In this document: positions 49,963 through 64,000 of the stretch, piece after piece
How positions within the stretch are numbered: position 1 is the stretch's first letter
Layout of the letters: each line of letters starts with the position of its first letter
Source of the DNA: Nitrospirales bacterium
Lineage (GTDB): Bacteria > Nitrospirota > Nitrospiria > Nitrospirales > UBA8639
Length of the DNA: 64,000 nt
Assembly: GCA_029261255.1 (NCBI GenBank)
Contig: JAJDBQ010000093.1
Span: 1 to 64,000 of the forward strand
Direction of reading: 5' to 3'
The notes under the pieces: model-generated
What the model was told of the DNA's origin: nothing
The model's input: only the letters and a program-made list of their open reading frames with translations
The model's database searches: none
Program-made: the position numbers and the translations under genes

Positions 49963-50007
49963 GGCGATGGTACGTGTGAATCTTCAAAGTTGGGAGGGGT
50001 ACAACAT

Positions 50008-50487
50008 ATGGTGACTATTCAAACGAGTCGATTTGGTCAGATTGATGTGTCGGAAGATACTTTCCTGACCTTTCCCACGGGGCTTGTTGGCTTCCCAGCT
50101 GTTCAACAATTTGTGGTGTTAGATGTGGCAGAGGATTGCCACTATCAATGGTTTCAAGCCATCAAAGAACCGGATTTAGCTCTAATCATTATTGATGTGC
50201 ATTGCCTCGATCCTGAATTCCCAGTAGAAGCTTCTGATGAAGCGATCGCAGAATTAGAGATCAGGCCAACGGACCCTGTGCTCATTATGGCCGTGGTGAC
50301 TATTCCCTCGGGAGAACCTGACCGCGCGACAGCGAATCTTCGTGCGCCGCTCGTTGTGAATTTACGTACTCGAAAAGGCAAACAATTGATCTTACATGAG
50401 TCCATTCCCTTGCATTTTCCTTTACTGCCAGAAGCCGAATCTGCTCAGGCAGAGGTGCTTCCGGTGAAGGAAACCGCATCGGTCTAA
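50008..50487 (+). CDS. fliW: Flagellar assembly factor FliW
   Basis: TFPTGLVGFPAVQQFVVLDV; NLRAPLVVNLRTRKGKQLIL. Confidence 0.93.
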   Translation: MVTIQTSRFGQIDVSEDTFLTFPTGLVGFPAVQQFVVLDVAEDCHYQWFQAIKEPDLALIIIDVHCLDPEFPVEASDEAIAELEIRPTDPVLIMAVVTIPSGEPDRATANLRAPLVVNLRTRKGKQLILHESIPLHFPLLPEAESAQAEVLPVKETASV

Positions 50488-50547: not shown

Positions 50548-50808
50548 ATGCTCATACTAACCAGAAAAAAAGATGAAGCGATCCGTCTCGGCGAAGACAT
50601 TCGAATTGTCTTAGTCCAAATTAAAGGTGGGCAAGTGCGCCTTGGCATTGAATGTCCCTCCACGATGCGAGTCCTCCGTGAAGAACTCTACGAAGCGGTT
50701 CGTAAAGAAAACTTAAATGCGCTTTCCATCGATCCCTCACAAATCCAAGCCCTTCCTAAAAGCCTAAAGCTTCCCCCAAAAGACCTCAAGCCGCCTTCGA
50801 CTTCGTAA
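50548..50808 (+). CDS. csrA: Carbon storage regulator CsrA
   Basis: MLILTRKKDEAIRLGEDIRIVLVQIKGGQVRLGIECPSTMRVLREELYEAV. Confidence 0.96.
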   Translation: MLILTRKKDEAIRLGEDIRIVLVQIKGGQVRLGIECPSTMRVLREELYEAVRKENLNALSIDPSQIQALPKSLKLPPKDLKPPSTS

Positions 50809-51131: not shown

Positions 51132-51905
51132 ATGAATCCAAATACTTTGTTTTGTACGAATAATAGGCAATTTGGGACGCCAGTGGGGATCACTGCCGTC
51201 ATTCTAGCTGGTGGGCTAGGTATGCGTTTGCGATCGGTTGTACAAGATCGGTCAAAAGTGATGGCAAATGTTGCCGGGCGACCCTTTCTTACCTATGTGC
51301 TGGATCAAATAGTAAACGCAGGAATTAAACGAGCTGTTATATGCACTGGATTTTTGGGAGATTCCATTTCTACCGTTCTGCAGGACGATTATCGAGGATG
51401 TCAGTTGCTCTACTCACACGAAATGACGCCATTAGGAACGGCTGGAGCATTGAGACAAGCGTTATCAAAATTACTGACTTTTCCGGTTCTTGTCTTTAAT
51501 GGTGATTCGTATGTGGACGTGGACTTAGAGAAATTTACAGAATTTCATGTCTCCCGACAGAGTAAATTGAGTGTGACTTTAACAAAGAAATCTTGTAGTG
51601 CCGCATTCGGGTTAGTGGAATTGGATGCTCAAGGAGAGGTAAAAAGATTCTCTGAAAAGGAATCAACAGGAAAACCAGAATGGGTCAATGGAGGGGTGTA
51701 TATATTGGAACAGAAAATATTTGAATCGATATCCGAAATGAAAGTGGTTTCTCTTGAGCGGGAGATTCTCCCAGCATGGGTTGGTAGGGGGCTGCATGGT
51801 TTTCCTCAACACGGGGAGCTGTTTGATATTGGAACGCCTGAATCATTGTCGGAAGCTCAAAGTTATTTTGCGGAATGTAATTCTCAATCATTGGCCTGCC
51901 CATAG
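51132..51905 (+). CDS. Nucleotidyltransferase, D-glycero-D-manno-heptose-1-P guanylyltransferase (HddC)-like
   Basis: AVILAGGLGMRLRSVVQDRSKVMANVAGRPFL; GDSYVDVDLEKF. Confidence 0.85.
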   Translation: MNPNTLFCTNNRQFGTPVGITAVILAGGLGMRLRSVVQDRSKVMANVAGRPFLTYVLDQIVNAGIKRAVICTGFLGDSISTVLQDDYRGCQLLYSHEMTPLGTAGALRQALSKLLTFPVLVFNGDSYVDVDLEKFTEFHVSRQSKLSVTLTKKSCSAAFGLVELDAQGEVKRFSEKESTGKPEWVNGGVYILEQKIFESISEMKVVSLEREILPAWVGRGLHGFPQHGELFDIGTPESLSEAQSYFAECNSQSLACP

Positions 51906-51923
51906 GATTTTCAGCTAGGGAAA

Positions 51924-52859
51924 ATGAACATGAATTCGCCCGAAATATTTGAACGGTTATTTTTTCAAGCCTTACGTATTCGGCTTGTAGAAGAACGAAT
52001 CATTGAATTGTATCCCTCCGACGCGATTCAAAGTCCGGTTCATTTATCGATTGGTCAAGAGGCCGTGGCGGTTGGCGCATGTGAACCATTAACAAACCAG
52101 GACCTTGTCTTTTGTACCTACCGAAGCCATGCGTTTTATTTGGCTAAGGGCGGAAACCTCAATGAAATGTTTGCAGAACTCTATGGCAAAATCACGGGAT
52201 GTGCCAGGGGTAAAGCGGGATCAATGCATTTAGCTGCCCCTGAAGTAGGCCTCATGGGTGCGTCGGCGGTTGTCGCGAGCACAATTCCCCATGCCGTAGG
52301 TGCGGCGCTTGCCGCAAAACGGTTGAACAAAAAACAAGTAATCGTGGGAGTGTTTGGAGATGGAGCGACAGAAGAGGGCGTCTATCATGAATCACTAAAT
52401 TTTGCAGCCCTTCATCGTTTGCCTGTGGTTTTTTTATGTGAAAACAATGGCCTCGCGGTGCATTCGTATCAAAAGGCGAGACAAAGCTTTGAAATTTCAG
52501 GGCATGCTCAATCATATGGGCTTCCGGTTCACCACATTACTGAAGGATATGATTTCGTCAAGGTCGCGGGGGTCATGTCAGAAATTATTGATCACGTGCG
52601 GACGGATCAAGCCCCGGCCTTTGTTGAGATTCAGACCTGTCGGTACAAAGAACATGTGGGGCCAGGAGAAGACTTCTCTTGTGGGTATCGGAATATCGAA
52701 GAATTTCAGGAATGGAAGCAACATGACCCACTCGAACAATTTCCTAAATTAGTGGAAACATTTCGGCCTATGATTCTGAAAGAAATCGATGCAGCGATTG
52801 ATTTTGCAGAACGTAGCCCTTTTCCTTCGATCGAGGAGTTACTCTGTGATGTCGTGTAA
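51924..52859 (+). CDS. Pyruvate/acetoin dehydrogenase E1 alpha-like TPP enzyme
   Basis: HLSIGQEAVAVGA; GKAGSMHL; VGVFGDGATEEGVYHESLNFAALHRLPVVFLCENN (TPP motif). Confidence 0.92.
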   Translation: MNMNSPEIFERLFFQALRIRLVEERIIELYPSDAIQSPVHLSIGQEAVAVGACEPLTNQDLVFCTYRSHAFYLAKGGNLNEMFAELYGKITGCARGKAGSMHLAAPEVGLMGASAVVASTIPHAVGAALAAKRLNKKQVIVGVFGDGATEEGVYHESLNFAALHRLPVVFLCENNGLAVHSYQKARQSFEISGHAQSYGLPVHHITEGYDFVKVAGVMSEIIDHVRTDQAPAFVEIQTCRYKEHVGPGEDFSCGYRNIEEFQEWKQHDPLEQFPKLVETFRPMILKEIDAAIDFAERSPFPSIEELLCDVV

Positions 52860-53988
52860 TACCGCGATGACCTTACCTGTGAACTGTGATGACGATGTGG
52901 TCAGTAATGGGGCAGACACAGAAGTACAGGTGATCAGTTACCGTGATGCGTTGCATCGGACAATGCACGAAGCACTTCGTCTTCACGATTCTGTGATTAT
53001 TATTGGGCAGGGTGTTGATGATCATAAGGGCATATTTGGCTCCACCATAGGGTTGGCTCAAGAATTCGGTCTTGATCGTGTGATGGATACGCCACTGGCT
53101 GAAGAAGGGATGACGGGGGTAGCTATTGGTGCAGCATTAAATGGCTTGTATCCGATCCAGACGCATATCAGGGCAGATTTTTCGTTATTGGCGATGAATC
53201 AAATAATTAATTTAGCGGCCAAATATAAATACATGTTTGGTGGCCGATTCGAAGTTCCTATGTTGATTCGGATGATTGTTGGACGCAGCTGGGGGCAAGG
53301 CGCTCAGCATTCCCAAAGTCTTCAATCACTTTTTGCGCATATTCCAGGTTTAAAAGTCGTAATGCCTTCGAGTTCACAAACGATTCTAGACACGTACCCG
53401 AGCGTGATCGCTGAGTATCGCGGACCTGTCATTTCGTTTGAGCATCGACTTATGTATGACTTGAATTTTCAGATTGATCCTCTATTGACGAAGCAGAAAC
53501 GAGATCCTTTTGGGTCGTATGTGGTTCGGCAAGGTAACGATATCACCATTGTCGCCACCTCAATCATGGTGTTGGAAGCTATGAGAGTCGCTGACCATTT
53601 AGCCAAGGTGGCGGGTATTCAATGTGAAGTTATTGATTTACATTGCGTATCGAATCCCGACTGGAATTTGATGATGCAGAGTGTCGAAAAAACTGGACGA
53701 TTAGTGGTGGCGGATACGAGTTGGCGTGAATATGGCGTGTGTGCGGAAGTCTGTCGCGTGGTGGCTGAACGAAACCCTGGTTGCTTAAGGAAACCTGTGG
53801 TGTCATTGGCAATGCAACCGGCGCCCTGTCCTACGGCCAAGTCGCTGGAAGATATGTTTTATCCTGACCTACGCCAATTCGCCAATGCGATTGCCACACT
53901 TGTTCATGGAAACGAAGAACATGGAATTCAATTGCCAGACACACAATCGATGGCGGATGTGTATAAACGGTTTAAAGGGCCATTTTAA
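52849..53988 (+). CDS. Pyruvate/acetoin dehydrogenase E1 beta-like TPP enzyme
   Basis: YRDALHRTMHEALRLHDSVIIIGQGV; DTPLAEEGMTGVAIGAAL. Start ATG52849 overlaps the E1 alpha stop. Confidence 0.9.
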   Translation: MSCNTAMTLPVNCDDDVVSNGADTEVQVISYRDALHRTMHEALRLHDSVIIIGQGVDDHKGIFGSTIGLAQEFGLDRVMDTPLAEEGMTGVAIGAALNGLYPIQTHIRADFSLLAMNQIINLAAKYKYMFGGRFEVPMLIRMIVGRSWGQGAQHSQSLQSLFAHIPGLKVVMPSSSQTILDTYPSVIAEYRGPVISFEHRLMYDLNFQIDPLLTKQKRDPFGSYVVRQGNDITIVATSIMVLEAMRVADHLAKVAGIQCEVIDLHCVSNPDWNLMMQSVEKTGRLVVADTSWREYGVCAEVCRVVAERNPGCLRKPVVSLAMQPAPCPTAKSLEDMFYPDLRQFANAIATLVHGNEEHGIQLPDTQSMADVYKRFKGPF

Positions 53989-54030
53989 GAACAGCAGAGG
54001 AACCCTGATGCGAATGAAGGGACACGATTC

Positions 54031-55008
54031 ATGAAAATTTTAATCACGGGTATCACAGGAATGGTGGGGAGTCACCTAACCGAATATGTTTTGTCTCACC
54101 AACCTCATGTGGAAGTTCATGGAATGCTGCGGTGGCGTAGTCCTTTAAATCATATTAGCCATCTTCAGGATCGAATCCATTTACATTATGCGGAACTACG
54201 AGATCTTCATTCACTGGTGGCGCTTCTTCGAAAAGTACAACCTGAGCGAATTTTTCATTTAGCGGCCCAATCGTTTGTCACCACAAGTTTCGATGCGCCT
54301 GCGGATACGTTGCACACGAATATCATTGGCACAACCAATTTGCTGGATGCTATTCGTCTAACGGGAATTGACACCAAGATACATGTCTGTAGCTCGTCTG
54401 AAGTGTATGGACAAGTCTTAGAAGATGAAGTCCCCATTAAAGAATCCAATCCATTTCGTCCTGCAAGTCCGTATGCCGTCTCCAAGGTCGGCGAAGACAT
54501 GATCGCGTTTCAATATTTTCTTTCTTATGGGATCAAAACCTACCGCACACGAATGTTTACCCATACCGGTCCACGCCGGGGTGACGTTTTTGCGGAAAGC
54601 GCCTATGCCAAACAGATTGTGGAAGTAGAAACCGGCCTTCGAGCCAATCCGATTCGGATCGGTAATCTGAACAGTATTCGTACATTTGCAGATGTACGAG
54701 ATGCGGTTCGAGCCTATTGGATGTTGCTAGAAAAATGCGAGCCTGGGGAGGTGTATAACATCGGCGGCAATCGTACGATGACCTGCGGGGACATGCTTGA
54801 AGAGTTAAAGAAGATGGCTCGTTGTCCCATTGAGCATGTAGTAGATCCGGCACTTCTCCGTCCATCCGATGTTACGTTACAGGTTCCGGATACGAGAAAA
54901 TTTCATGATGCAACGGGATGGGTCCCTGAAATCTCCTTCGAAGATACACTTCGTCATTTGCTTGACTATCAACGTGATAAAGCCAAAAAAATGGTGTTAG
55001 CCGCATGA
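54031..55008 (+). CDS. NAD-dependent epimerase/dehydratase (GDP-mannose 4,6-dehydratase/RMD-like)
   Basis: ITGITGMVGSHLTEYVL; SSSEVYG; SPYAVSKVGEDM. Confidence 0.88.
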   Translation: MKILITGITGMVGSHLTEYVLSHQPHVEVHGMLRWRSPLNHISHLQDRIHLHYAELRDLHSLVALLRKVQPERIFHLAAQSFVTTSFDAPADTLHTNIIGTTNLLDAIRLTGIDTKIHVCSSSEVYGQVLEDEVPIKESNPFRPASPYAVSKVGEDMIAFQYFLSYGIKTYRTRMFTHTGPRRGDVFAESAYAKQIVEVETGLRANPIRIGNLNSIRTFADVRDAVRAYWMLLEKCEPGEVYNIGGNRTMTCGDMLEELKKMARCPIEHVVDPALLRPSDVTLQVPDTRKFHDATGWVPEISFEDTLRHLLDYQRDKAKKMVLAA

Positions 55009-56126
55009 TTATTTCTCGGACTCCTTATCGGTTGTCTTTTTTTGGAGGGGGGACAGATTTTCCGGAATGGTACCTCAGAGAAGAAGGAGCTGTTCTTTCT
55101 GTCACTATCGATAAGTATTGCTATTTGAGTTGTCGCCACCTGCCTCCTTTTTTCAATATTAAACACCGCATTGTGTGGTCGCACATTGAAACGGTCTCAA
55201 GTATATCTGAAATTCTGCATCCGGCTGTTCGCGAAGGATTACGATTTTTAGGTTTTGATGATTCGCAGGGTGTAGAAATTCAGCATCAAGGTGATTTGCC
55301 TGCAAGAAGTGGCATTGGATCCAGTTCTTCATTTTCGGTGGGGCTGGTCAAAGCGCTCACAGGGATGAAGGGAGGGATGTTGGGGAAAATGGAGCTGGCG
55401 CGTCAGGCCATGACATTGGAACAAGACATTTTAAAGGAAACTGTGGGTTCACAGGATCAAATTGCTGCCGCGTTCGGAGGATTTAATTGTATACGATTTT
55501 TAAGAGACGGGCAGATACAGGTCGAACCAGTTACGTTGTCCTCGGGTCGAGTGGCGGAACTTGAACAGAGTCTGATCTTGCTCTATACAGGAACGGGCCG
55601 ATTTGGTTCAGAAATTTCTAAAAATGTGACGAAAAATTTTCCGATGCGATCAGCGGAACTCTCAGAAATGAGGGGTATGGTTGATAAAGGTCTGAGTATT
55701 TTATCTGGTGAAGGTTCTCTGGATGAATTTGGACGCTTGCTGCATAAAAGTTGGATGCTGAAACGTAGTCTTTCCAATGAAATTTCCAATGCTACGATTG
55801 ATGAAATCTATCAGCAAGCTCTGGACAATGGAGCCATCGGTGGAAAACTTTCTGGGGCCGGTGGCAGTGGTTTTATGTTGTTTTATGTTCCCATCCCTAT
55901 GCAGGCCCAATTCCTTTGGGCAATGACTCCATATATCTGTGTGCCGTTTGCGTTTACTCAATCGGGAAGTAGCATTATTTATTACGATGGTCCTGATCAA
56001 ATGTTAAACGGAGCGGAACCCTCTGGCATAGAAGGGCCGTATCAGAAATTGGGAGAACGAGATCTTCCAAGTCTCAAAGCCAATGGGCGGGCTAAGGAAA
56101 AAACCCTTGTAGGAAATCGAGCCTAG
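55005..56126 (+). CDS. GHMP-family sugar kinase, D-glycero-D-manno-heptose-7-P kinase (HddA)-like
   Basis: ISRTPYRLSFFGGGTDFPEW; GDLPARSGIGSSSSFSVGLVKAL; GGKLSGAGGSGFMLFY. Confidence 0.88.
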   Translation: MIISRTPYRLSFFGGGTDFPEWYLREEGAVLSVTIDKYCYLSCRHLPPFFNIKHRIVWSHIETVSSISEILHPAVREGLRFLGFDDSQGVEIQHQGDLPARSGIGSSSSFSVGLVKALTGMKGGMLGKMELARQAMTLEQDILKETVGSQDQIAAAFGGFNCIRFLRDGQIQVEPVTLSSGRVAELEQSLILLYTGTGRFGSEISKNVTKNFPMRSAELSEMRGMVDKGLSILSGEGSLDEFGRLLHKSWMLKRSLSNEISNATIDEIYQQALDNGAIGGKLSGAGGSGFMLFYVPIPMQAQFLWAMTPYICVPFAFTQSGSSIIYYDGPDQMLNGAEPSGIEGPYQKLGERDLPSLKANGRAKEKTLVGNRA

Positions 56127-56699
56127 ATGAGTAGTGTGGCATCAATTGAGAATTCAAGTCATCCACGAGTGTCTGAAGCCAAAGAAGTTTTTGAATGCCC
56201 GTGGTTTCATGTCCATGAGGAAAAGTGGGAGAACCCTTCTGATTTAGACCCAGGGCCTTTTTATCGTATTGAAAGTCTCAATAGTGTTTTGGTTTTGGCT
56301 TTAACGAGCGATGGTGAAATTATCCTAGTACGGCAATTTCGTCATGCCATTCGAGCGACGACTCTTGAAATCCCTGCTGGAAGCATAGAAGGAGGAGAAA
56401 CTCCGGAGCAAGCGGCGGAACGTGAATTACTAGAAGAGACTGGGTATCGGGCCGGTACGCTTCGTTTAGTGGGTAACGGACACATCATGATGAATAGATA
56501 CAGTGCGAGAGATTTTTTATTTTTAGCCGAACATTCTGTTGTAGTTCCGCGTCATCCAAAAGAACAACACCCCGATGTGCTGTTGCTCTCGCTCGGAGAG
56601 TTTAAAGACTTAGTGATCGCTGGGGGGGTTACGCAGATTCCTGCCCTTTCCCTTTTCTGTCTAGTTGAATGGAAACTCGGCTCACGGCTCGTGGCATAA
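56127..56699 (+). CDS. NUDIX hydrolase
   Basis: GSIEGGETPEQAAERELLEETGY Nudix box. Confidence 0.9.
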   Translation: MSSVASIENSSHPRVSEAKEVFECPWFHVHEEKWENPSDLDPGPFYRIESLNSVLVLALTSDGEIILVRQFRHAIRATTLEIPAGSIEGGETPEQAAERELLEETGYRAGTLRLVGNGHIMMNRYSARDFLFLAEHSVVVPRHPKEQHPDVLLLSLGEFKDLVIAGGVTQIPALSLFCLVEWKLGSRLVA

Positions 56700-56700
56700 C

Positions 56701-57567
56701 ATGGACATTCAGGCTCTTTCACAAAAATCTTCAGAGTTAAGACTTCATATTCTCAATGCTGCTTTGAAAGCTGGAAAAGGACATGTTCCTCCGGCCTTTT
56801 CCTGGGTGGAAATTGGAGTGGCTTTGTTTTATGGGGGGCATCTTTCCTTTCGGCCTTCTGAACCAAAATGGGAAGGTCGGGACCGCTTTATCCTGAGTAA
56901 GGGGCATGGCTGTTTGACCCTATACGCGATTCTGGCGGACTTAGGTTTTATCCCAAAGGAGGCATTGGATTCCTTCTGCCAACCAGGCAATGTGCTAGCG
57001 GGGCATCCCGATACAAATATTCCAGGCGTGGAAGTCATTTCAGGTTCTCTTGGGCATGGCTTAGGGGTTAGTGCTGGCTTAGCGTTGGGAGCAAAACTCA
57101 ATTCTCAATCATGGAATGTCGTAACGGTTATGGGGGATGGTGAATGCCAGGAAGGATCCGTATGGGAAGCGGCCATGTTTGCGAGCCACCACCGTCTCGA
57201 TAACCTTGTAGCGGTTATTGATCGTAATCAGTTAGGTGCGACTAGTTTTACAGAGAAAAACCTTACCTTAGAACCATTAGAGAATAGGTGGGAAGCCTTT
57301 GGTTGGGATGTGGTTAGTATTGATGGGCATTCATTTGAAGAGTTAAACCGGGTCTTTTCCAGTATCGGACATCGAACCTCCACAAAACCTCTTCTTGTGC
57401 TAGCGGAGACAGTAAAAGGAAAAGGTGTTTCATTTATGGAAAGTTCTGTTGATTGGCATCATCGACTTCCCAAGGGAGATGAAGTGAAAGACGCTCTTCG
57501 ACAGCTGACGGAACCTAACATCCATTCAGGCTTAGTCGAATCGATGGAGATGGTTCATGATGCGTGA
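56701..57567 (+). CDS. Transketolase N-terminal subunit
   Basis: RFILSKGHGCLTLYAIL; GSLGHGLGVSAGLALGAKL; VMGDGECQEGSVWEAAMFASHHRLDNLVAVIDRNQ. Confidence 0.92.
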   Translation: MDIQALSQKSSELRLHILNAALKAGKGHVPPAFSWVEIGVALFYGGHLSFRPSEPKWEGRDRFILSKGHGCLTLYAILADLGFIPKEALDSFCQPGNVLAGHPDTNIPGVEVISGSLGHGLGVSAGLALGAKLNSQSWNVVTVMGDGECQEGSVWEAAMFASHHRLDNLVAVIDRNQLGATSFTEKNLTLEPLENRWEAFGWDVVSIDGHSFEELNRVFSSIGHRTSTKPLLVLAETVKGKGVSFMESSVDWHHRLPKGDEVKDALRQLTEPNIHSGLVESMEMVHDA

Positions 57568-58501
57568 TTTTCGTGATGCGGTTTTTGACGGTGTCTTAGA
57601 GGTCGTAGCTCAAGATCCTCGAGTCATGGTCTTGACCAATGACATGGGGGCAATGGGTTTAAGCCAAATTCAGGAATCATTTCCCAAGCAAGTTTTAAAC
57701 GTGGGGATCAGTGAGCAAAACATGATGAGTGTCGCAGCAGGGTTGGCTCTTTCCGGAAGTATGGTCTTTGCCTATGGTATCGCTTCACATATCACATCAC
57801 GATGCTACGAACAGTTGAAATTGGACGTATGTGCGCTAAATGTTCCAGTGGTTATCCTAGGAATGGGGTCGGGGTTGTCATATGGGATAGATGGGCCGAC
57901 TCATCACTCAACTCATGATTGCGCCCTTCTTCAAACACTGCCTGAGATGACAATTTATATTCCTGCAGATGGTGTGGCGACCAAGGCGATTGTTGCACGA
58001 GCCTATAGGGAGAGAACGCCAGCCTATATCAGAATTGATAAGGACCCCTATGAGCCTATCTATACTGCAGAGATTCATGATTTCAGCTTAGGCAATAGCA
58101 CGGTTCAAGAGGGGGAGTCCCTTTGTGTGGTAACGAATGGCATCATGCTTCATCGCGTACGTGAGGTCGCCACAGAGTTACTCCGTGAGGGAATTGAGCT
58201 GACAATTATTGATCTTTATCGTTTGAATCCTTGTAATGAATCTCTACTGTTAGAGGCATGTCACGGAGCCCAGGCCATTGTGACGGTGGAAGAACATGGT
58301 CGTTTTGGTGGAATAGGGAACTTGGTCGGGCGCTTACTAAGCGAGCAGGGAATACGTATTCCCTTTAAGGGCATATCCTTGAGTGATGAAACCATGTTTG
58401 GAGCAGCCAGTCGAAGCTGGGCTCATGCCAAGTATGGTCTTGATAAAGAAAACTTAAAGAATGAGCTTAGGCAAATGGCTCTCTTTCCCATGACGGTTTG
58501 A
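57560..58501 (+). CDS. Transketolase C-terminal subunit
   Basis: LNVGISEQNMMSVAAGLALSG; GIDGPTHHSTHDCALLQTLPEM; VTVEEHGRFGGIGNLV. Confidence 0.92.
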   Translation: MRDFRDAVFDGVLEVVAQDPRVMVLTNDMGAMGLSQIQESFPKQVLNVGISEQNMMSVAAGLALSGSMVFAYGIASHITSRCYEQLKLDVCALNVPVVILGMGSGLSYGIDGPTHHSTHDCALLQTLPEMTIYIPADGVATKAIVARAYRERTPAYIRIDKDPYEPIYTAEIHDFSLGNSTVQEGESLCVVTNGIMLHRVREVATELLREGIELTIIDLYRLNPCNESLLLEACHGAQAIVTVEEHGRFGGIGNLVGRLLSEQGIRIPFKGISLSDETMFGAASRSWAHAKYGLDKENLKNELRQMALFPMTV

Positions 58502-59544
58502 TTCATGTCCGCTCTATTGGATACTTCTTATTTATGCTGAACAAAAAACTCTCCTTCTATCATGGGAAAAAAGTTCTAGTCGCTGGTGGGACCGGAATGA
58601 TTGGTATCCCTCTCATTCAAGCATTACTGAAATTCGAGGCTCAGGTTACAGTAGTTTCTCTTGAGCAGGAAGAGTACGCAAAAGGATTGCTGGGATCGTC
58701 TATCAAGTTTTTTCGGGGAGATTTAACTCAATATAGTACATGTGAAAGGGCAATGGAAGGGCAAGAGTATGTATTCAATTTGGTTGGGATTAAAGGATCA
58801 GTTGGTATTGGAGTAAAAAGAGCGGCAAGTTACTTTGTGCCGATGCTTCGCTATCAATCAAATTTGTTAGAGGCAGCGTATCGTGGAGGTATATCTCGGT
58901 ATCTCTTTGTTAGCAGTATTTGTGCGTATCCACCTTCAGATTTTCATGAGGAGGATAATCTTTGGAATGGTCTTCCCAAGCAAAATGATCGCTATGCGGG
59001 GATTGCAAAACGCGTTGGAGAAATTGAAGCCGAAACGTACCTACATGAATACAATTGGGATGCTGTGCGAGTCGTTCGGCCTTCCAATGTGTATGGACCA
59101 TTTGATGATTTTAACCCAGCCACTGCGCAAGTGATTCCTGCTCTTATTCGTAGAACGTTGGATGGAGAGCGGCCTGTTTGCATTTGGGGCGACGGATCAG
59201 TCATCCGAGATTTTATTTTTGTGCAGGATGTTGTCGATGGATTGTTGTTGGCTTTGGAAAAAGCACCGCCTTGTTTTCCGATTAATTTAGGAAGTGGTAT
59301 CGCTACGACTATCAAAGACTTAGCTGAAGTCATTGTTGCTAAAAGCAATGTCCGCACTTCGATTGAGTGGGATCCCTCAAAGCCATCGGGTGACCCGATC
59401 CGGTTGTTGTCAATACAACGGGCAGAAGATTCCATTGGATGGTGCCCTAAAACGTCTCTCCGCGAAGGAATTCAACAAACCATCGCTTGGTATATGAAAA
59501 ACCAGGAACTGGCTCATGAACGCAAAAACCTTCTCAGCGCCTAA
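58498..59544 (+). CDS. NAD-dependent epimerase/dehydratase, paralogue A
   Basis: VAGGTGMIGIPLIQALL; VRPSNVYGPFDDFNPA; WGDGSVIRDFIFVQDVV. Start uncertain (ATG58534 possible). Confidence 0.87.
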   Translation: MIHVRSIGYFLFMLNKKLSFYHGKKVLVAGGTGMIGIPLIQALLKFEAQVTVVSLEQEEYAKGLLGSSIKFFRGDLTQYSTCERAMEGQEYVFNLVGIKGSVGIGVKRAASYFVPMLRYQSNLLEAAYRGGISRYLFVSSICAYPPSDFHEEDNLWNGLPKQNDRYAGIAKRVGEIEAETYLHEYNWDAVRVVRPSNVYGPFDDFNPATAQVIPALIRRTLDGERPVCIWGDGSVIRDFIFVQDVVDGLLLALEKAPPCFPINLGSGIATTIKDLAEVIVAKSNVRTSIEWDPSKPSGDPIRLLSIQRAEDSIGWCPKTSLREGIQQTIAWYMKNQELAHERKNLLSA

Positions 59545-59983
59545 GAATAAAAAGGTAAAAACTAAAGGACTGCTAAGCCCTCGATTTGTTCCAGGATTGG
59601 GAGATTTGATCGATCGATTGTCAGTCGATCAATTGAAGGAGGCGTTTCATGCGTCCATGAGAACGTCAATCAGATCTGAAATTGCTGACTTAGAACATGA
59701 TATTGATGAGTGGGCGGAGCTGTCTCAGATTAAATTATCTGGGCGGAACGTTCGAACGATTATCGTGCTTGCGCAAATCAATTATGAAATTTGGATGTGT
59801 AAAGAGCGTATGGAAGCAGAAGCTCAACATTACGATAAATGGCTGAGGAGAGCACATCAATTGAACGGAATACGAAATCGAATGAAGAACTTACTGTTGG
59901 TGGAGGTTCAAAGAGAAAGCAGGCAGTGCCCAGCAAGTAATCTATCCGTTGATGTTTTAGAAGATTGGAATATTCAGTTTTAA
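59516..59983 (+). CDS. Conserved hypothetical protein of a glycan operon (possible DUF6165-like)
   Basis: GLGDLIDRLSVDQLKEAF, helical; overlaps the previous gene by 29 bp. Confidence 0.65.
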   Translation: MNAKTFSAPKNKKVKTKGLLSPRFVPGLGDLIDRLSVDQLKEAFHASMRTSIRSEIADLEHDIDEWAELSQIKLSGRNVRTIIVLAQINYEIWMCKERMEAEAQHYDKWLRRAHQLNGIRNRMKNLLLVEVQRESRQCPASNLSVDVLEDWNIQF

Positions 59984-59996
59984 CCATAAGTTAAAA

Positions 59997-61112
59997 ATGC
60001 TTTTCAAAACCTTAGGCCAAACCGACATAGAAATTTCCGCGATCGGTCAGGGTTGTGGAATTCATCATTCCCTGAGCACACGGGAGGTCTATAGGCAACT
60101 TGAATCTACGATTCGGGCTGGAATTGATATGGGGATGAACTTTATTGATACCGCACCTGTATACGGTGACGGGGAGTCTGAAATAGTCCTCGGCAAAGCA
60201 TTGAAGGGAATCCGCGATAGAGTTGTGTTGGCGACAAAGGTCTCCCCTGAGAATTTATCCATTCAGGGCATCGAAGATTCAATGAAGATGAGTCTCTGTC
60301 GACTGAAGACAGATCGGATTGATCTTCTCCAAATCCATTGGCCAAATCCTCAAATCCCTATTTTGGAAACGTTACGAGGTCTTGAAAAAATGGTGCAAGA
60401 GGGGTTGGTCCGGTATGTGGGACTTTGTAACTTTTCAATCAAAGAAACGCAATATATTCAACAACAGCTTTCCCCGAAGCTCCTGGCCTCAGTTCAAGTC
60501 GAATATAATTTATTCGATCGGAGTATTGAGCGAGACTTTTTACCATTGGCTCAAAAATCAGATATCAGCATTATTGCCTATAGTCCTCTTCATCGGGGAC
60601 GAATTGTTGCGAATCAAAAACAGTGGGCCATTCTTCAGGGAATTGCGAGCAAATATCAAAAAACGCCTGCGCAGATTGTTTTACGTTGGTTGACCAAGCA
60701 ACAACCCGTTGTGGTGATCCCAAATACGACAAACATCCAACGAGTGAAAGAAAATGCCGAAAGTCTGAATTTTGATATAGAGGAAGAGGATATTAGATGT
60801 CTTGAGCAAAAATGTAGGGGCCATCTTCTTGATGTTCCTCCGAGTTCAATCCAAGTTGCAGATGATTCAGGGCGTTCAGTCTATCGAACGCTTGGGGAAG
60901 CTATGGAGAATGCTATGAAGTGTGTCCCCAGCCCACAGGATTTGGCGAAACAAATTGAAAATGGTGATTTTCTGAAGCCAGTTCGGCTGCGACCTGCAGG
61001 ATCCTCTCGTGAGAAATTTGAATTATTAGAAGGTCGAATTCGATATTGGGCTTGGGTGATTGCCCATGGGTTCGATAAACCTCTACCAGCGTTGATTGAG
61101 GATTATTCATGA
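59997..61112 (+). CDS. Aldo/keto reductase with C-terminal ParB/sulfiredoxin-like extension
   Basis: AKR motifs GMNFIDTAPVYGDGESEIVLGKAL, DLLQIHWP; extension FLKPVRLRPAGSSREKFELLEGRIRYWAWVIAHGFDKPLPALIED. Confidence 0.85.
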   Translation: MLFKTLGQTDIEISAIGQGCGIHHSLSTREVYRQLESTIRAGIDMGMNFIDTAPVYGDGESEIVLGKALKGIRDRVVLATKVSPENLSIQGIEDSMKMSLCRLKTDRIDLLQIHWPNPQIPILETLRGLEKMVQEGLVRYVGLCNFSIKETQYIQQQLSPKLLASVQVEYNLFDRSIERDFLPLAQKSDISIIAYSPLHRGRIVANQKQWAILQGIASKYQKTPAQIVLRWLTKQQPVVVIPNTTNIQRVKENAESLNFDIEEEDIRCLEQKCRGHLLDVPPSSIQVADDSGRSVYRTLGEAMENAMKCVPSPQDLAKQIENGDFLKPVRLRPAGSSREKFELLEGRIRYWAWVIAHGFDKPLPALIEDYS

Positions 61113-62089
61113 AATTGGCAGATGAGATGATGGTCGGCACCTCAAATATTTTGCAAACCTGTGAGCAACCAGCAGAGCTGACTCAAGAAGACTTTGAAGA
61201 TCTTTTTGGAGAGCCCTCGGGGACATTCTTTCATGAATGTCAGAAATTGATAGAAAGTCTAGATTTTCGATATGACATTCTAAAGGGTCCTTTTCGTGAA
61301 GAAGTTTTTCTGCGGGTGTTGAATACACTCCATCAGGATCTAGAAGTCGCCGGGAAACATCGGAAACAACGTTGGGAAGATGGGTGGGGGGAAAACCTCA
61401 GTCAATTTCGAAGCACTGGGTATGATTTGGCTGCTTTGGCTCCAAAATTTGTCCGGCTGCAGGAAATCATTAGATTGCGTGGGGAATATGTTCGCCCTTA
61501 CTGCGATCAATTTGAATCAAATTTTGTCAAAGTGTTGCGTCAATGGATGTTTAAGAAATGGTTTCATTCTATCGACCATATTTACGAATTTGGTTGTGGA
61601 ACTGGGCACAATTTGATCGATGCGGCTGTTTTGTTTCCAGACCGTCCGTTGTATGGCTTGGATTGGTCTCAAGCCTCACAAGTCATTCTTCGACTTATGA
61701 AAGAATACCATGGGTTTAATATTGTAGGTCGAGAATTTGACATGCTAGATCCAGATGCATCCTTTGCTCTCAATCCTCAAAGCGGAGTGTTTACCGTTGG
61801 GGCCATGGAGCAGTTAGGGAATCAGTATCATGCTTTTTTGAACTATATCCTCGCGCAACGTCCTCAAGTATGTGTGCATGTGGAAACCTTGTATGAGCTC
61901 TATGATCAGTCAGATCTATTTGATTATGTAGCGGCAAAATATCTTGAGAAAAGAAAATATTTGCGAGGAATGCTTGGCACTTTGCAAGCTCTTGAAAAGG
62001 AAGGCCACCTTCAAATTTTGGGAACAATTAGAACGTTTGGTTCTCTGTATCATGATGGATATTCGGTAGTGATTTGGAAGCCCCTGTAG
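61109..62089 (+). CDS. SAM-dependent methyltransferase-like protein
   Basis: IYEFGCGTGHNLIDAAVLFPDRPLYGLDWS motif I. Confidence 0.75.
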   Translation: MKLADEMMVGTSNILQTCEQPAELTQEDFEDLFGEPSGTFFHECQKLIESLDFRYDILKGPFREEVFLRVLNTLHQDLEVAGKHRKQRWEDGWGENLSQFRSTGYDLAALAPKFVRLQEIIRLRGEYVRPYCDQFESNFVKVLRQWMFKKWFHSIDHIYEFGCGTGHNLIDAAVLFPDRPLYGLDWSQASQVILRLMKEYHGFNIVGREFDMLDPDASFALNPQSGVFTVGAMEQLGNQYHAFLNYILAQRPQVCVHVETLYELYDQSDLFDYVAAKYLEKRKYLRGMLGTLQALEKEGHLQILGTIRTFGSLYHDGYSVVIWKPL

Positions 62090-62101
62090 GAGGAACGTTA
62101 G

Positions 62102-62863
62102 ATGGTGAATGCAGAACAATTAGATATTAAGTCATATGCGGATTCAAGTGAGCAGATGGCGCGTCGACAAATGGGCACTTTACTTTCCCAGACTCTGATT
62201 CCTCCTGAACAATTGTTGCCAAATCTCGGGCTTTTTCTTGAATCAAAAAATTTGTCTCGTCTGTTATTTATGGATTTTCTATATCGTCAGATGATCTCTG
62301 TTCAAGGTGTCATCATGGAGTTTGGGGTGCGCTGGGGGCAAAATCTTGGGTTGTTTTCAGCCTTGCGCGGTATTTATGAACCTTTCAATCGACATCGAAA
62401 AATTGTGGGTTTTGACACGTTTACAGGTTTTCCTTCAATTCATGAAAAAGATGGGCAATCAAGCATGATGGTGAATGGACAATTGGCCGTTGCCCCTCAA
62501 TATAAAGAAACGCTTCAACAGTTGTTAGATGTACATGAATCACTCAATCCATTGGCTCATATCAAAAAAAATGAATTGTGTGAAGGTGATGTTGTGGATG
62601 AGTTGCCGAAGTATTTGAGTCGATGTCCAGAAACTATCGTAGCAATGGCGTATTTTGATTTGGATTTGTATGAACCGACCGTTAAATGTCTTGAGCTCCT
62701 CCGTCCTAGAATGACCAAAGGAACGGTCTTGGGATTTGATGAACTGAATGATCCTGATTCTCCTGGAGAAACGCTTGCCCTCATGGAAGTCTTTGGCCTG
62801 AATCATTTGAGAATTCAACGGTTTCCTTTTGCTTCCCGAGTGTCATATGTGGTGATCGAATAG
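62102..62863 (+). CDS. TylF/macrocin O-methyltransferase-like protein
   Basis: GVIMEFGVRWGQNLGLFSALRGIY; IVGFDTFTGFPSIHEKDG; AYFDLDLYEPTVKCLELLRPRM. Confidence 0.78.
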   Translation: MVNAEQLDIKSYADSSEQMARRQMGTLLSQTLIPPEQLLPNLGLFLESKNLSRLLFMDFLYRQMISVQGVIMEFGVRWGQNLGLFSALRGIYEPFNRHRKIVGFDTFTGFPSIHEKDGQSSMMVNGQLAVAPQYKETLQQLLDVHESLNPLAHIKKNELCEGDVVDELPKYLSRCPETIVAMAYFDLDLYEPTVKCLELLRPRMTKGTVLGFDELNDPDSPGETLALMEVFGLNHLRIQRFPFASRVSYVVIE

Positions 62864-62892
62864 CAATATATTTCAAAACAAGGAATGGAAAC

Positions 62893-63921
62893 GTGGCTAT
62901 AATAATCGCTAACCAAAAATCTAAAGGGATGATTTCAGAATCCATATTACGGTTCTTTCATGGGAAGAATGTAGTGGTAACCGGGGGAAGCGGGTTGATT
63001 GGGCGACAAATAGTGCGGACGTTGGTCGAAGCTGGTGCGTCTGTTCGGAGTGTATCCCTTGATGAAATTCAGATTGAAGAAGGCGTGGAGTATCTACAGG
63101 GAGACTTGTGTAACTTTGAATTTTGCCAACGTATTGTGAAGGATATGGATTGTGTCTTTCATGTAGCTGGAATTAAAGGCTCCATTGAGGTGACCAAATC
63201 CAAGCCAGCAAGTTTTTTTGTTCCACTGTTGATGATGAATACTAATATCTTAGAGGCTTGCCGGATCAATAAGGTTGAGCGAGTCGTCTATACTTCTTCT
63301 ATCGGAGCCTATCCTAGTGCTGAAGTTTTTAAGGAACATGAGGGCGAAGATGAAGGCGCACCGATGGATATGTTTCCCGGATGGGCTAAGCGGATGGCTG
63401 AATTGCAAATTCGAGCGTACCAAATCCAGTACGACCTGAAACATTATGCGGTTGTACGTCCCTGTAATGTGTATGGGCCAGGGGATAATTTTGATCCCGC
63501 CAATGCCATGGTGATTCCCACTCTCATGCGTAGAATTTTTTCGAAGGAAGATCCTGTGGTGATTTGGGGAAATGGCACGGCTATACGAGACTTTGCCTAT
63601 AGTGCGGATGTGGCTAATGGAATCATTTTAGCTCTGTACCACGGTACTGGTGGACGATATGTCAACTTAGGAAGCGGAACTGGGTATAGCATAAAAGAAA
63701 TGGTTGAAATACTTCAGACAGTTATCTCATTTCGAGCTGAATTCGATAGCACAAAGCCTAGTGGATTTCCCCGGCGGGTGATGGATATTTCTTTGGCCAA
63801 AGAAATGTTGGGCTACGATCCTCAAGTCAGGTTGGAGGAGGGTTTACAACAAACATGGAATTGGTATTTGGAGAATTCTGATGAATACCTTAAACGGCAA
63901 AACTATTTCGCCACAGCCTAG
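62893..63921 (+). CDS. NAD-dependent epimerase/dehydratase, paralogue B
   Basis: VTGGSGLIGRQIVRTLV; VRPCNVYGPGDNFDPA; WGNGTAIRDFAYSADVA. GTG62893 or ATG62929 start. Confidence 0.87.
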   Translation: MAIIIANQKSKGMISESILRFFHGKNVVVTGGSGLIGRQIVRTLVEAGASVRSVSLDEIQIEEGVEYLQGDLCNFEFCQRIVKDMDCVFHVAGIKGSIEVTKSKPASFFVPLLMMNTNILEACRINKVERVVYTSSIGAYPSAEVFKEHEGEDEGAPMDMFPGWAKRMAELQIRAYQIQYDLKHYAVVRPCNVYGPGDNFDPANAMVIPTLMRRIFSKEDPVVIWGNGTAIRDFAYSADVANGIILALYHGTGGRYVNLGSGTGYSIKEMVEILQTVISFRAEFDSTKPSGFPRRVMDISLAKEMLGYDPQVRLEEGLQQTWNWYLENSDEYLKRQNYFATA

Positions 63922-64000
63922 ATCCCAGATTAATTCCAGTCGATTAGATGGTGTGAGGGTGGTGACTCCGCCCACCATTTTTGAGGATTTTCGTGGGACA
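63881..64000 (+). CDS. 5' fragment of an RmlC/FdtA-like cupin sugar epimerase, runs off the window
   Basis: MNTLNGKTISPQPRSQINSSRLDGVRVVTPPTIFEDFRGT, open to base 64000; GV-x-V-x-P...F-x-D-x-RG is typical of dTDP-sugar 3,5-epimerases. Not in the supplied ORF track. Confidence 0.65.
   Translation, partial: MNTLNGKTISPQPRSQINSSRLDGVRVVTPPTIFEDFRGT

Follow-up and report, generated by a model that had tools for sequence, protein, structure and literature searches.

The first 64,000 bases of the 94,666-base contig JAJDBQ010000093.1 (G000:C244; hereafter the window) come from the draft genome (G000, 88% complete) of a nitrite-oxidiser-like Nitrospirales bacterium and carry a sugar operon between flagellar regulator genes and the flagellin gene. 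Here, we propose, at a probability of roughly 0.6, that this operon is the cassette of a flagellin glycosylation island and makes a GDP-activated 6-deoxy sugar bearing a two-carbon (C2) branch, most likely a heptose; the reactions, the heptose as substrate, and FliC as acceptor are all predicted from the genes. The branch would be placed by an E1alpha/E1beta pair (g2/g3), dependent on thiamine diphosphate (ThDP), that scores under the pyruvate dehydrogenase (PDH) families but is not PDH.

Results

The pair consists of g2, an E1alpha-like ThDP subunit (positions 51924 to 52859; PF00676, 184.6 bits), and g3, an E1beta-like ThDP subunit (52789 to 53988, alternative start 52861; PF02779/PF02780) with a C-terminal FKGPF tail, both on the + strand. 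The other matches to g2 in the genome are transketolases, leaving it the only true E1alpha. Glu105 and His174 of g3 and His69 and His244 of g2 are invariant and, by mapping to human PDH, are presumably the expected ThDP catalytic residues. Although Pfam and NCBIfam place both subunits in PDH E1 families, they are not the cell’s PDH, because E2 is absent, the pair falls in its own clade, and relatives with PDH carry a second E1beta beside E2. PF00198 (E2) was absent from G000 and from a 100% complete relative (G007). An E1beta alignment searched against 84,980 species genomes recovered 80 related loci, whose neighbours were counted within about 9 kb; none had E2 or E3 (0/80), versus E2 near all 11 PDH-type E1beta loci used as controls. 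In relatives possessing PDH, its E1beta adjoins E2 and is 37 to 39% identical to g3. The tree separated a PDH clade (100/100) from a 27-row clade (100/100) with all flagellar copies and their relatives, drawn from Thermodesulfobacteriota, Lentisphaerota, Kiritimatiellota, Myxococcota, Pseudomonadota, Verrucomicrobiota, Bacteroidota, Fidelibacterota, Elusimicrobiota, and Campylobacterota. Cultured carriers of the clade include Marinomonas aquimarina, Catenovulum maritimum, and Azospirillum oleiclasticum. A C-terminal FxGPF tail ends 47/48 and 30/31 non-PDH E1beta sequences versus 0/11 from PDH. The predicted E1beta structure (mean predicted local distance difference test [pLDDT] 73, tail end unresolved) gave no mechanism. 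As an E1alpha/E1beta pair lacking E2 in a deoxysugar cluster with a 4,6-dehydratase that would provide the keto sugar, g2/g3 resemble AviB1/AviB2-type systems in gene content.

Among the 80 loci, a closer clade of 48 (E1beta at least 53% identical to g3; about ten phyla) lies in surface-sugar clusters. Within 9 kb, a dehydratase of the type of g4 was found in 35/48, a kinase of the type of g5 in 36/48, a nucleotidyltransferase of the type of g1 in 31/48, and an aldo-keto reductase (AKR) in 23/48, along with either a split transketolase (12/48) or a B12-radical S-adenosylmethionine (SAM) enzyme (18/48). A second E1beta, mostly with its own E1alpha, is present in 11/48. Two different E1alpha/E1beta pairs occur at L112, L127, L130, L108, L124, and L133, most of which also encode a B12-binding radical SAM enzyme; judged by their sequences, such paired loci suggest two branching steps. 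GmhA was found in 12/80 related loci, and 19/80 have a DegT protein with His at the position of the aminotransferase pyridoxal phosphate (PLP) lysine, a feature that marks sugar 3-dehydrases (RfbH/ColD). By analogy, this His-type DegT would match a 3,6-dideoxy 4-keto substrate as used in yersiniose, whose genes comprise a 4,6-dehydratase, a 3-dehydrase, a ThDP branching enzyme, and a reductase. By the same analogy, the gene logic of these neighbourhoods is that of yersiniose and of the Campylobacter jejuni GDP-3,6-dideoxy-heptose.

Upstream of the cassette lie fliW (49990 to 50487) and csrA (50548 to 50808), both + strand open reading frames that also flank it in relatives. Sixteen same-strand sugar genes follow, g1 to g16 (51132 to 65438), mostly overlapping or at most 42 bp apart. 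Reading the whole contig showed the operon to extend beyond the window, with the end of g15 and all of g16 past position 64000. Next come a 3,028-amino-acid glycosyltransferase (g17, L003:2548-11634; TPR and methyltransferase regions besides four GT2 domains), three further glycosyltransferases (two of the GT9 family, one of DUF3880 type), one small unknown gene, and then fliC, flaG, fliD, and fliS. A sigma-28-like promoter match (10 of 12) lies upstream of fliC (L003:17369, contig position 80369). Gene order and reading frames of the cassette are preserved in other genomes at 40 to 89% identity and so are not due to chance.

Comparison with same-genus or same-family genomes placed the E1-dehydratase-kinase core beside fliW/csrA in G002, G007, G010, G017, G018, G019, and G028, with 73 to 89% identity for the E1 and dehydratase genes and less for the kinase and NUDIX genes in some; partial contigs of G001, G004, and G012 agree with the cassette being kept. 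G007 retains the core but, in place of the transketolase, g9, and g10, encodes PhyH-type oxygenases, an FkbM methyltransferase, and a B12-binding radical SAM enzyme. In G003, G014, and G020 the sugar cassette is absent and the large glycosyltransferase follows fliW (in G020 with one unrelated opposite-strand gene between them), and in G009 other sugar genes stand in place of the cassette. Cassette-less relatives encode a 1,548-amino-acid version of the 3,028-amino-acid glycosyltransferase. Across the compared relatives the g17-g21 block and fliC are constant, whereas the cassette may be retained, modified, or missing. A flagellin glycosylation island, in which strain-variable sugar and glycosyltransferase genes lie amid flagellar genes, would be expected to vary in this way, FliC being the predicted glycan acceptor. 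The initial annotation had suggested flagellin as a possible target from the position after csrA; that link is supported by a cassette which has fliW/csrA on one side and fliC on the other and which is exchanged as one block among members of the genus. It had also named downstream genes of a known O-antigen or capsule pathway as grounds for refutation; the genes there are instead glycosyltransferases and then fliC, flaG, fliD, and fliS.

All of the at least 13 genes that the initial annotation had listed in overlapping or near-contiguous order are present on the + strand (intergenic gaps of −41 to +42 bp) with domain matches; its list missed g10, and the RmlC-like gene and a third short-chain dehydrogenase/reductase (SDR) run past the window. 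Pfam and NCBIfam supported NTP_transferase, E1_dh, Transket_pyr/Transketolase_C (twice), GDP_Man_Dehyd, GHMP kinase, NUDIX, and Transketolase_N, as well as three GDP-fucose-synthase-like SDRs, AKR, and RmlC. An Rfam scan of the 64-kb window gave no match.

In the proposed pathway, GmhA-like and GmhB-like proteins encoded elsewhere in the genome (185.6 bits, cut-off 209, and 128.4 bits, cut-off 150; similar in G007, G010, and G019) would act with g5 and g1 to form GDP-heptose. g1 (51132 to 51905; PF00483) is an HddC-like sugar-1-phosphate nucleotidyltransferase and predicted GDP-heptose pyrophosphorylase, with best Protein Data Bank (PDB) matches 6jq8/5xhw (“putative 6-deoxy-D-mannoheptose pathway protein”), and g5 (55005 to 56126) is an HddA-like GHMP sugar kinase (PDB 4usm and 3k85; NF049969, under its cut-off). 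The product would be dehydrated to a GDP-4-keto-6-deoxy sugar by g4 (54031 to 55008), a GDP-heptose/GDP-mannose 4,6-dehydratase-like protein with YxxSK intact, whose best PDB match is the GDP-heptose dehydratase 7us5 (252 bits, E = 6e-74; above GMD and RMD), a similarity from which its substrate is predicted. g2/g3 would decarboxylate pyruvate and, having no E2 partner, put the two-carbon unit onto the C4 ketone. The candidate branch ketoreductase g11 (59997 to 61112; PF00248), an AKR, would then reduce the acetyl branch to hydroxyethyl. This protein has a C-terminal extension of about 90 amino acids (60819 to 61112) that is weakly ParB_N-like.

The RmlC-like 3,5-epimerase g15 (63881 to 64438, of which 63881 to 64000 is in the window; PF00908, 166 bits) and the SDRs would set the stereochemistry. 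The latter, g9 (58498 to 59544; profile and PDB matches), g14 (62893 to 63921; profile match), and g16 (64431 to 65438, L003:1431-2438, past the window), are GDP-fucose-synthase-like and lack the Tyr at K-4: the Lys of YxxxK is invariant, but every homologue checked (6, 14, and 26, respectively) has Ala, Pro, or Val in place of the Tyr, whereas g4 homologues retain Tyr in 45/45. Judging from these residues, the three may differ from ordinary C4-reductases, enzymes that would compete with branching. Methylation would fall to g12 (61109 to 62089), a SAM-methyltransferase-like protein conserved in relatives, and g13 (62102 to 62863), a TylF-like O-methyltransferase. Both methyltransferases named by the initial annotation are thus present, though only as weak profile matches under cut-off (Methyltransf_25, 20.2 bits versus 27, for g12, yet with a clear YEFGCGTGH SAM motif; PF05711, 21.8 bits, slightly under 23, for g13).

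The split transketolase, formed by g7 (N half, 56701 to 57567; PF00456) and g8 (C half, 57557 to 58501; PF02779/PF02780; best PDB match the split transketolase 6yaj), may attach a further hydroxyacetyl group as a second two-carbon unit; a change at the phosphate site of g8 (GR to D/E-K) is suggestive only. G000 encodes a second split transketolase, next to an SDR, at a different polysaccharide locus (L090:10386-13160). The small helical protein g10 (59516 to 59983; 155 amino acids, no family) occurs in the scanned loci only alongside the split transketolase and g9; its predicted structure is a four-helix model (pLDDT 63), for which a fold search gave no match at E ≤ 0.001. g6 (56127 to 56699; PF00293) is a NUDIX hydrolase. 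Finally, the constant glycosyltransferase block g17-g20 would transfer the sugar to FliC.

Discussion

Precedents for such branching come from antibiotic and surface-sugar pathways. AviB1/AviB2 (avilamycin), Pau11/Pau12 (paulomycin), EvdU5/EvdS3, and KbDH are PDH-like E1 pairs proposed or shown to put a pyruvate-derived acetyl group on keto sugars; KbDH accepts pyruvate and ketones in vitro, and in paulomycin the AKR Pau7 reduces the acetyl branch (PMC4753412, PMC4425429, PMC12247030). The cassette likewise sets a PDH-like E1alpha/E1beta pair among sugar genes and has an AKR, as in paulomycin, but its neighbours are of GDP-heptose type and it lies in a Gram-negative flagellar island rather than a bacterial antibiotic pathway. 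As in yersiniose A, the C2 branch would be at C4 of a 4-keto-deoxy sugar, and related loci share the His-type 3-dehydrase; however, YerE is a single acetolactate-synthase-type flavoprotein acting on a CDP-sugar, whereas the cassette encodes an E1alpha/E1beta pair whose substrate is probably a GDP-sugar. HddA-like and HddC-like proteins, a 4,6-dehydratase-like protein, an RmlC-like epimerase, and reductase-type SDRs (with a PLP C3-dehydratase in variants) are shared with the GDP-heptose pathway, for which ThDP branching enzymes, an AKR, and a split transketolase are not described; the cassette SDRs also differ in lacking the YxxxK Tyr. Miharamycin and amipurimycin, which are Streptomyces nucleoside antibiotics, likewise have a split transketolase within a branched-sugar cluster, for which transfer of hydroxyacetyl to a keto sugar is proposed but unproven (PMC12247030). 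Like flagellin glycosylation islands, the locus has strain-variable sugar-nucleotide and glycosyltransferase genes beside fliC, but the sugar chemistry differs, with no pseudaminic- or legionaminic-type genes among those of the cassette. The branched sugar proposed in the initial annotation is supported, as a set of predicted reactions, by the absence of E2, the separate clade, the co-inherited GDP-heptose-type genes, and these published precedents for C2 branching.

Several observations weigh against a branched heptose made for flagella. g5 and g1 are top or near-top matches to HddA and HddC but score 147.9 and 134.6 bits against NCBIfam equivalog cut-offs of 600 and 300, which leaves room for a different sugar as substrate; the “-like” labels of the initial annotation are apt for the same reason. 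GmhA and GmhB may serve lipopolysaccharide only, and several relatives have no local HddC, the nearest elsewhere being 36 to 38% identical. No sigma-28-like promoter was found upstream of g1, unlike fliC, and most related loci outside Nitrospirota are not adjacent to flagellar genes, so the sugar is not flagella-specific. The likeness to AviB1/AviB2 is one of gene content and published descriptions.

The same branching chemistry might instead act on a mannose-derived GDP-hexose, the HddA and HddC homologues working on another sugar phosphate. This is unlikely, if credible: the missed equivalog thresholds, the resemblance of the SDRs and g4 to GDP-mannose/GDP-fucose enzymes, and the lack of GmhA or GmhB in the part of the operon in the window agree with it, but the best PDB matches of g4 and g1 are a GDP-heptose dehydratase and a 6-deoxy-mannoheptose pathway protein, GmhA recurs in related loci (12/80), and 36/48 loci have inherited an HddA-like kinase with the pair although GDP-mannose would need neither HddA nor HddC. 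Less probable still is a conventional GDP-6-deoxy-heptose route with no branched sugar, the role of the split transketolase being limited to sedoheptulose-7-phosphate supply and that of the E1 pair being to make activated acetyl for acylation. Transketolase does make sedoheptulose-7-phosphate, from which all C. jejuni GDP-heptoses derive, and such routes usually end with an RmlC-like epimerase and GDP-fucose-synthase-like SDRs; against this, E1 without a lipoyl E2 (absent from G000, G007, and the 80 loci) cannot form acetyl-CoA, the genome already has ordinary transketolase genes, family scans found no acyltransferase or carrier protein among g1-g16, and the E1 pair is retained where the transketolase is absent (L023). 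That the pair is the genome’s PDH or acetoin dehydrogenase E1, here by chance, is highly improbable: its family assignment and its standing as the sole E1 in the draft genome would fit, but the absence of E2 (0/80 versus 11/11 loci), the second E1beta beside E2 in PDH-bearing relatives, the separate clades, and a sugar neighbourhood conserved in about ten phyla contradict it.

A conserved trio of transaldolase, SIS isomerase, and GmhB-like HAD phosphatase, resembling the first part of the lincomycin octose route, is present at G000:C72 and G007:C9 in a polysaccharide locus (L075:697-2615 and L206:6857-8844). A lincomycin-type octose route was rejected as the cassette pathway; because the trio lies apart from the cassette and has no E1 genes with it, it could at most supply sugar.

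Returning to the branched GDP-heptose, E1-type C2 branching tied to a GDP-heptose-type route on flagella appears undescribed in the literature searched, although its chemistry has precedents in antibiotics and yersiniose; a search for heptose-containing flagellin glycans of Nitrospira found nothing relevant. Tentatively, the loci could represent a widespread undescribed pathway to doubly extended GDP-heptoses, branched sugars of 9 to 11 carbons that about ten phyla would carry on flagella and other surfaces. The first C2 unit would come from pyruvate via the E1 pair and, also tentatively, the second via either the split transketolase or a second E1 pair.

About 120 natural-product gene clusters are known to encode carbon-branching ThDP enzymes of this class (PMC12247030). 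Whether split transketolases branch keto sugars, a question left open there, could be tested directly with the cassette, and a C-terminal FxGPF with no nearby E2 is a short mark separating candidate branching E1 proteins from the PDH under whose families they score. The finding would connect this class to a GDP-heptose-type pathway and to surface and flagellar glycans in many, mostly uncultivated, phyla.

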